NCBI RefSeq assembly: GCF_900215325.1
Contig: NZ_OCMS01000001.1
Coordinates: forward strand, 310,001 to 374,000
Length of the DNA: 64,000 bases
Direction: 5' to 3'
From: Fibrobacter sp. UWB16
GTDB taxonomy: Bacteria > Fibrobacterota > Fibrobacteria > Fibrobacterales > Fibrobacteraceae
The notes under the pieces are model-generated. The model worked only from the letters and a program-made list of their open reading frames with translations, was not told where the DNA came from and made no database searches. Numbering within the stretch: the stretch's first letter is position 1; each line of letters begins with the position of its first letter. Positions 53,931-56,340 of this stretch are shown here, piece after piece. The position numbers and the translations under genes are program-made.

Positions 53931-55658
53931 ATGGCATACATCGCAATGGCGCGTAAGTGGCGCCCGCAATCATTCAGCGATATGGTCGGTCAGGAACATA
54001 TCGCAAAGACTCTCGAGAACGCCATTCAGGGCGGTCGTCTCCATCATGCATTCCTTTTTACCGGCACCCGTGGTGTGGGCAAGACTACTAGCGCCCGCAT
54101 CCTCGCCCGCACGCTCAACTGCAAGGGCAATGACCCGCTGCACCCGTGTGGGCAGTGCGACAGCTGCAAGGATATCGCCGGCGGAAACCCGATGGACGTC
54201 TATGAAATAGATGCGGCCTCTAACACCAGCGTCGACAACATCCGCGATGTGATTGAACGTGTGCAGTACCCGCCCGTCATCGGCAAGTACAAGATCTTCA
54301 TCATCGACGAAGTCCACATGCTCTCGACAGGCGCCTTCAACGCTCTTCTCAAGACGCTCGAAGAACCGCCGTCCCACGTGATTTTCATTTTTGCAACGAC
54401 CGAAGTCAACAAAGTCCCGCAGACGATTTTGAGCCGCGTGCAACGTTTTGACTTCAAGCGCCTGACCGTAGACCAGATCCGCAGCCGCCTCCGCTACATT
54501 TGCGAACAGGAAGGCATCAAGGCCACCGATGAAGCCCTCGACATCTTTGCCGAAAAGGCCGACGGTTCCATGCGTGACGGTCTCACCTACTTTGACCAGG
54601 CATACGCCTTTACCGGGAACGAGATGACAGCGGAATCCGTCCGCTCCGTCCTCGGCATCCCACCTGTAGAACTTTTCTTCTCGCTCATCCAGTCCATCGA
54701 AAACCACGACATCAAGGGTTGCTTCCGCATGGTGGATGACGCTGTGAAAATCGGTATCGAGTTCATCCCGCTGCTCGATGGCTTTGGCAAGTTCCTCCGC
54801 AATTTGCTCTACGCCCGCCTCGACGCATTCACGCCGGACGCACTCAACATCACCGAAGAGCTTTACACCAAGTACAAGAGCTGCGCACAAAGTCTTACGA
54901 ACGGAGATATTCTCCGCATCAGCAAGATGCTTATCGACTTGCAAGGTACGCTCCGCTACAGCACGAACCCGCGCCTCCTCGTCGAGACGACGTTTGCCCG
55001 AATGGCTTGGCTCGACCGACTGGTCGATTTGCGAAAAGCTCTTGCAGCGATTAACGATCCTAAAAGCGCCGAAAACGACGCGGTAAAAAAAAAAGTAACT
55101 GAAGTCAGCGCCATGATAGACGCCCAGGAAGAAGTCCAGGCGTCTTATGATGACCCATTTGCAGGCTACGATCAAGGTGGCGTGCAGGCATTTTCACGTT
55201 ACGAAATTGCCGCCGCATGGCCTTCCATCCTCTCCAACATCGCTAACGACGGCGACTACGTATTCTCCGCCGCCATTGCTGGCACCACGCTTGAAACCGG
55301 CGACCCCGAACAGAATCCGTTCCCGATTGCGCTTACCTACGCGGGCACGACCGAGAATGCCGAAAACTGGGGCTACCGCCAAATGACGGAGCATCCCGAA
55401 TACGTCGAACGCGTGACTCGCATTTTGGAAGACCGCCTGCAGACAAAAATTGCGCTTTCCATCCGCACCCGCGCCTTCACCGAATCGGAACTTGCCGAAC
55501 AGCGCGCCGCCAAGATGAGCCCATACGAGCTCGACCTGGAAAAGGAACCGGGACTTTCAAAGCTCCAGCAGATGTTTGCAACGGAACTCGTCTTCACCAA
55601 GAAACTCAAGAAAGCAGCCATCGTTTCACAATGTGACGAAGAAGATTGCGACGCATAG
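53931..55658 (+). CDS. dnaX: DNA polymerase III tau/gamma subunit
   Basis: The clamp-loader ATPase that drives the sliding clamp. Walker A is GTRGVGKTTS, the zinc site CKGNDPLHPCGQCDSC, Walker B/DEVH FIIDEVHML, and the arginine-finger SRC-like motif ILSRVQRFDFK. 575 residues. At 55085-55094 a run of ten A covers codons 386-388 (Lys-Lys-Lys); both alternative frames stop within 3 codons, so ribosomal or polymerase slippage would give a gamma-like product of about 390 residues ending after the ATPase and collar domains. It partners holA at 11642. Confidence 0.95.
   Translation: MAYIAMARKWRPQSFSDMVGQEHIAKTLENAIQGGRLHHAFLFTGTRGVGKTTSARILARTLNCKGNDPLHPCGQCDSCKDIAGGNPMDVYEIDAASNTSVDNIRDVIERVQYPPVIGKYKIFIIDEVHMLSTGAFNALLKTLEEPPSHVIFIFATTEVNKVPQTILSRVQRFDFKRLTVDQIRSRLRYICEQEGIKATDEALDIFAEKADGSMRDGLTYFDQAYAFTGNEMTAESVRSVLGIPPVELFFSLIQSIENHDIKGCFRMVDDAVKIGIEFIPLLDGFGKFLRNLLYARLDAFTPDALNITEELYTKYKSCAQSLTNGDILRISKMLIDLQGTLRYSTNPRLLVETTFARMAWLDRLVDLRKALAAINDPKSAENDAVKKKVTEVSAMIDAQEEVQASYDDPFAGYDQGGVQAFSRYEIAAAWPSILSNIANDGDYVFSAAIAGTTLETGDPEQNPFPIALTYAGTTENAENWGYRQMTEHPEYVERVTRILEDRLQTKIALSIRTRAFTESELAEQRAAKMSPYELDLEKEPGLSKLQQMFATELVFTKKLKKAAIVSQCDEEDCDA
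55085..55102 (+). promoter_or_regulatory. Candidate dnaX frameshift/slippage cassette
   Basis: Ten A, then GTAACTGA. The -1 frame reads Ser-Asn-TGA, and the +1 frame reads TAA at once. Confidence 0.7.
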
Positions 55659-55920: not shown

Positions 55921-56229
55921 ATGGACATGAGCAAGATGCTTAAGGACCTTCAGAAAATGCAGAGCAAGATGCTTAAGGCACAAAACGACCTCAAGGCACA
56001 GAGCTTTGATGCCGAAGCCGGCGGCGGAATGGTGAAGGTCGCCATGAACGGAAAGGGCGTACTCACGATGGTGAAGATCAATCCGGATGCAGTTGACAAG
56101 GACGATGTCGAAGCTCTCGAAGACCTCATCATGGCAGCCGTGAACTCAGCCGTCAAGAAGAAAGACGACGCCCAGCAGGCAAGCATTTCGGACATCACTG
56201 GCGGCATGAAAATCCCCGGTTTGATGTAA
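55921..56229 (+). CDS. ybaB: YbaB/EbfC nucleoid-associated protein
   Basis: A 102-residue DNA-binding protein of the YbaB/EbfC family. Helical N-terminus (MLKDLQKMQSKMLKAQNDL), then the core GGGMVKVAMNGKGVLTMVKINPD, then a C-terminal helix with LEDLIMAAVNSAVKK. The family lies after dnaX in many bacteria; here a 262-bp repeat-filled gap separates them, and recR is not adjacent. Confidence 0.93.
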   Translation: MDMSKMLKDLQKMQSKMLKAQNDLKAQSFDAEAGGGMVKVAMNGKGVLTMVKINPDAVDKDDVEALEDLIMAAVNSAVKKKDDAQQASISDITGGMKIPGLM

Positions 56230-56310
56230 TTTTCGCCAAATTTCGCAAAAATTCGCAAATTCGGATGCACTTCATCCCCAATATTTGCGCTTCATCAAAA
56301 ACAGAAAAAA

Positions 56311-56340
56311 GCACCCTTATGAAAAGGGTGCTTTTTTTTT
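56311..56340 (+). terminator. Intrinsic terminator of ybaB
   Basis: GCACCCTT and AAGGGTGC pair perfectly, followed by nine T. Confidence 0.88.

Follow-up and report, generated by a model that had tools for sequence, protein, structure and literature searches.

In the dnaX gene of Thermus, slippage on a run of nine adenines (A9) was reportedly described by Larsen et al. in 2000, and hairpin-dependent transcriptional slippage in an insertion sequence (IS) of Roseiflexus is said to have been described by Penno et al. in 2015. The dnaX gene of Escherichia coli relies instead on -1 ribosomal frameshifting, a process that is helped by a Shine–Dalgarno-like (SD) sequence and a closely spaced 3' stem–loop, and that needs a stop codon in the -1 frame alone. 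For Thermus thermophilus, three papers describe slippage on A9 (PMC1088944, PMC4320859, PMC5009743), with one or two forms of the gamma subunit (PMC1088944, PMC4320859). For the Roseiflexus IS, the last of the three (PMC5009743) describes a stem–loop in the nascent RNA, directly 5' of the slippage motif, that drives slippage; the motif, in the transposase gene, is T5C5, and no slipping takes place without the hairpin. Finally, dnaX genes that are divided into two open reading frames at runs of A7-A10 occur in Chlorobium, Chloroherpeton and others, and were catalogued with GeneTack (PMC3711429).

The dnaX gene considered here lies in a 64-kb stretch of Fibrobacter DNA, referred to below as ‘the window’ (Table 1). 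Like Thermus dnaX, it has an A-run after the collar domain, tau in the zero frame, and stops in both of the other frames, and a truncated gamma is predicted. Genes of the Thermus type are marked by a run of at least nine A after the collar and by close stops in both frames, and the window has both. Unlike that of Thermus, the run here is A10, the frame of tau drifts within the phylum, and the family has a conserved hairpin upstream. With the two-frame genes it shares, through its relatives, a number of shifted lineages (G037, G139, genera g4 and g12, and several members of family f7) in which tau needs a change of frame. In the window and in most relatives, by contrast, tau is in frame, and so a frameshift finder would be expected to pass such genes over. 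The same may hold for a recoding paper that names both Fibrobacter and dnaX, in which the phylum appears only in a table of the genomes screened: the method detects frame transitions, and a gene with tau in frame would therefore not appear. The comparison with E. coli is one of the same gene and, by prediction, the same outcome (tau plus gamma), but here there is no in-frame A_AAA_AAG, no conserved SD and no correctly spaced 3' stem–loop, and both off-frames are closed. Like the Roseiflexus IS, the family has a short stem with a loop of ~4 nt directly 5' of the slippage run; unlike it, the run is a long stretch of A in a housekeeping gene rather than T5C5 in a transposase, and the role of the hairpin is putative. 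Among 80 dnaX loci from other groups, A9-A10 runs, with near stops, are found in Planctomycetota, in Ignavibacteria/Bacteroidetes metagenome-assembled genomes, in one member of the Verrucomicrobia and in one of the Desulfobacteraceae; most of the other groups have no run.

The dnaX gene of the window and its predicted products

Table 1. Positions in the window of dnaX, its A-run and the associated features
Feature	Position	Strand	Remarks
dnaX	53931-55658	+	Zero-frame product tau, 575 aa, 64.3 kDa
Part shared by tau and predicted gamma, aa 1-371	53931-55043	+	ATPase, lid and domain III (collar); Pfam
24 nt directly 5' of the run, site of the family hairpin	55061-55084	+	Weak in the window
A10 run, candidate slippage site	55085-55094	+	Conserved as A8-A12 in 148/155 dnaX genes of the phylum
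Tau-only tail, 187 aa, predicted to be missing from gamma	55095-55655	+	Confident predicted fold
TAA stop, +1 frame	55096-55098	+	For transcripts with 9 or 12 A
TGA stop, -1 frame	55100-55102	+	For transcripts with 8 or 11 A

The protein matches NCBIfam TIGR02397 at 435 bits (cut-off 250) and carries the Pfam domains PF13177 (residues 20-178), PF22608 (182-229) and PF12169 (233-371); residues 1-358 align with E. coli gamma/tau structures. Domain III ends at residue 371, and the A10 run is therefore located just past the collar, in keeping with the preliminary description of this DNA, which had placed it after the ATPase and collar domains. The tail that follows was modelled with AlphaFold at a mean pLDDT of 85.9, and a comparison of this model with solved structures returned no PDB relative at E <= 0.001. 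On the - strand, a 401-codon open frame (53970-55175) lies antisense to dnaX, and looks like a shadow of coding-strand codon usage. The next gene after dnaX is ybaB/EbfC-like (55921-56229), and past it, read by eye, stands a terminator-like hairpin with a T-run (56302-56340).

In the zero frame, the site reads GTA AAA AAA AAA GTA ACT GAA. Codon 385 supplies the first A of the run, as its third base, and codons 386-388 supply the other nine. The -1 frame past the run (AGT AAC TGA) stops at the third codon, and the +1 frame (AAG TAA) stops immediately, so that the site is as first described: ten A over codons 386-388, a -1 stop within three codons and a +1 stop at once. When the number of A was changed in silico, 8, 9, 11 or 12 A gave products of 388-390 aa (43.6-43.8 kDa), and 10 or 13 A gave the full-length product. 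The run in dnaX is the sole A10 of the window on either strand. Base composition alone predicts 2.2 per 64 kb, and the window by itself therefore cannot show that the run is there beyond chance. Comparison beyond the window does show it, beginning with the whole genome (3.56 Mb), where an overlapping count of 88 for A9 corresponds to nine A10 runs.

Run, stops and tau frame across the phylum

Comparison across the phylum took in 155 dnaX genes that cover the site, with 14 families sampled. An A8-A12 run is present in 148 of them, and the median distance from collar to run is 24 codons (genus medians 6-36). Past the run, a single frame stays open over a long stretch in most genera, and stops soon interrupt the remaining two. 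In 26.4 of 35 genera, versus 2.3 expected, both off-frame stops fall within five codons. A long tail is present in 31 genera; taken frame by frame, 26.2 of these have the +1 stop, against an expectation of 6.9, and 27.7 have the -1 stop, against an expectation of 10.4. Two families have no run, f5 (G164 and G165) and f8 (G105-G109), and the run is therefore dispensable in the phylum. The original suggestion that ‘this phylum’ makes tau and gamma from one gene accordingly needs narrowing: run and stops are kept in most of the phylum, but these two families lack the run. The dnaX genes without the usual A-run after the collar are L118 and L119 in f5, and L136, L144 and L275-L277 in f8. Several have a shorter tail (440-496 aa in total) and retain a terminal motif like the EPIxxxLxxFDGE of their relatives; loss of the run may go with reduction of tau.

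The run itself is far from static. Its phase (0, 1 or 2) and its length (8-12) differ across the phylum, and a tree made from the shared N-terminal region has at least 10 changes of tau frame, 15 of phase and 17 of run length. Genomes G037 and G139 have A11 where their relatives have A10 (in L079 at codon 385, and in L092 at codon 382, respectively), and their tau tails are out of frame in the DNA; these genomes either put obligate slippage to a natural test or carry homopolymer errors in their assemblies. The tail is shifted also in genera g4, g12 and g28, in G080, G094, G097, G098 and G099, and in others (several of f7), in some lineages to the +1 frame and in others to the -1 frame. Identity to the in-frame tail of a relative is 79% for the shifted tail of G037 (compared with G028, A10) and 54% for that of G139 (compared with G140); judged by such homology, the shifted tails are real. 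Genera g2 and g4 have A9, and after it a shorter tail in the +1 frame. The last part of this tail is 53-90% identical among members, and near stops in the other frames are mostly missing. At loci L096-L102, L105, L106, L108 and L112 of these genera, the +1 tail spans 80-111 codons, and the zero frame continues for 5-51. This tail would be a reduced tau, and would need recoding to be made.

The drift of phase and length, the closure of both off-frames about equally, and a tau tail that is +1 or -1 according to lineage, all favour slippage of the Thermus type over -1 frameshifting of the E. coli type. A rule used with GeneTack points the same way: two directions of shift at one site signify slippage (PMC3711429). 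The preliminary description had named both models; with the frame drifting and both frames closed, that of Thermus gains and that of E. coli loses. Under the latter, gamma would arise when ribosomes shift to the -1 frame on A_AAA_AAA, in the manner of E. coli dnaX, and we consider it unlikely. The A10 run does contain an in-frame A_AAA_AAA, so ribosomal slipping could contribute; the -1 stop is close by; GAGG stands just 5' of the run in most members of the genus; and a stem–loop (55118-55145, z -3.3) lies downstream in the window. But the in-frame A_AAA_AAG heptamer is missing from the zero frame of the window, and GAGG is missing from the window's own clade and from most other genera. The downstream stem begins 23 nt past the run, some members of the genus do not have it, and across genera the sequence 3' of the run gives no folding signal. 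Nor would -1 frameshifting call for a +1 stop, which is kept as strongly as the -1 stop, or fit with a tau whose frame is +1 or -1 depending on the lineage. An Rfam search for the dnaX frameshift element found none, only two chance matches. The arms of the downstream stem–loop, AGACGCC and GGCGTCT, form a perfect inverted repeat of 7 bp, and the local fold that holds them is strong.

Codon usage at the run within the genus

Within the genus, dnaX was recovered from 76 of the 80 genomes sampled. The run is present in every one of the 76 (75 with A10, and G037 with A11), as are both off-frame stops within five codons. Conservation of the run and of the two stops in relatives had been put forward from the start as a check on the tau-and-gamma reading, and they are kept throughout the genus and in most of the phylum. 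The three lysines of the run are encoded by AAA in 75 of 75 sequences. At 14 conserved lysine columns elsewhere in the gene the codon is mostly AAG, and AAA occurs in 1-25 of the 75. The codon that follows the run is GTA, again in 75 of 75; GTA accounts for 18% of valine codons. Among 231 columns in which the amino acid is invariant, the codon is invariant in just 10, and five of these 10 are at codons 384-389. This codon invariance is our strongest single result; with the enrichment of stops, it argues clearly that the run and the stops are under selection. Alanine codon 384 (55080-55082), GCG in 75 of 75, is part of the upstream hairpin, in its 3' arm.

The run might, nonetheless, have no function, being part of a lysine-rich linker or a product of base composition, with tau the only protein made. 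Linkers are often rich in lysine, and a chance A10 is expected somewhere in 64 kb. This is very improbable, however, given AAA in 75 of 75 versus mostly AAG elsewhere, a run that is kept in three phases, with different residues encoded in each, near stops in two frames at well above the expected frequency, and lineages whose DNA does not have the tau tail in frame. Chance or composition as the origin of the run was considered in its own right, and is ruled out by conservation and the codon tests. We give next to no credence to a phase-variation switch, in which replication slippage would alter the run and the A11 species would be off-state variants: close relatives do differ in length (A11 versus A10 for both G037 and G139), but one length is common to 75 of the 76 genomes of the genus, tau is out of frame in whole genera (g4, g12 and g28), a switch of this kind has no use for the two flanking stops, and tau is expected to be essential.

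Upstream hairpin and proposed mechanism

Segments of 24 nt were folded along the gene in 35 genera. The segment that ends at the run has a mean z of -1.06 (s.e. 0.19), and the 46 other offsets range from -0.32 to +0.27. The sequence of the hairpin varies from genus to genus (e.g. CGCCTC-cgac-GAGGCG in g1, CGCTTC-caat-GAAGCG in g5 and GACCTC-tcc-GAGGTC in g14), and its arms pair within genera, but not between them. Native arms fold at -5.00 kcal/mol, versus -2.72 when arms are swapped between genera (s.d. 0.33; best of 2000, -3.78), and by group the z for arm swapping is -5.6 (f1), -2.9 (f7) and -2.1 (others). Against a null that keeps the amino acids the same, the signal holds when counted by genus (z -0.78, s.e. 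0.17); counted by family it is not significant, and it is absent in f2, f9-f12 and f14. Covariation in a fixed register within the genus and the genera closest to it (g1, g5 and g7) was no better than in permuted pairs, and the case for the hairpin therefore rests on its position and on the arm swaps between genera. The family hairpin is supported statistically by these. Strong in the family (z -5.6 for f1), the stem–loop is weak in the window itself (-4.6 kcal/mol, z -0.28). In the family, it probably helps slippage by forming beside the RNA:DNA hybrid. The argument is one of geometry: once the run fills the hybrid, the hairpin would sit next to it.

We think it highly probable, from sequence comparison, that programmed transcriptional slippage lets the single gene dnaX make both tau and gamma. 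On A10 (T10 in the template), RNA polymerase would slip and produce mRNAs that differ in the number of A. Full-length tau would be translated from transcripts with 10 A, or with 10 plus or minus a multiple of 3; on all others, the ribosome would reach the TAA or the TGA no more than three codons on and yield gamma, of ~43.7 kDa, which would keep the ATPase and collar domains and be without the tau tail. In the family, the short RNA hairpin directly 5' of the run would aid slippage from its place beside the RNA:DNA hybrid. That slippage takes place in this organism, and at what level, we infer. We place the gene of the window with the dnaX genes that slip in the manner of Thermus, with the hairpin and the drift of frame as possibly new features.

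A broader proposal may be entertained, which we put forward tentatively and would not yet back. In nearly the whole phylum, a nascent-RNA hairpin and a run of 9-12 A might make slippage so efficient that the frame of tau, at the level of DNA, drifts freely and repeatedly, leaving an essential replication gene ‘frame-blind’. If true, frame-blind dnaX would be a cellular housekeeping gene in which a hairpin assists slippage, and the upstream hairpin, if active, would connect RNA hairpins of a terminator-like kind with slippage at a housekeeping locus. On the main reading alone, programmed slippage in dnaX, until now a matter of scattered cases (Thermus and the Chlorobi type), would be widened to 12 of the 14 sampled families of a single phylum, with clear selection on run and stops. 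Lineages with tau out of frame in the DNA are natural experiments, since efficient slippage or frameshifting is the one way for them to produce tau. And the repeated conservation of what appears to be a device for making gamma bears on the debate over how important gamma is in cells.
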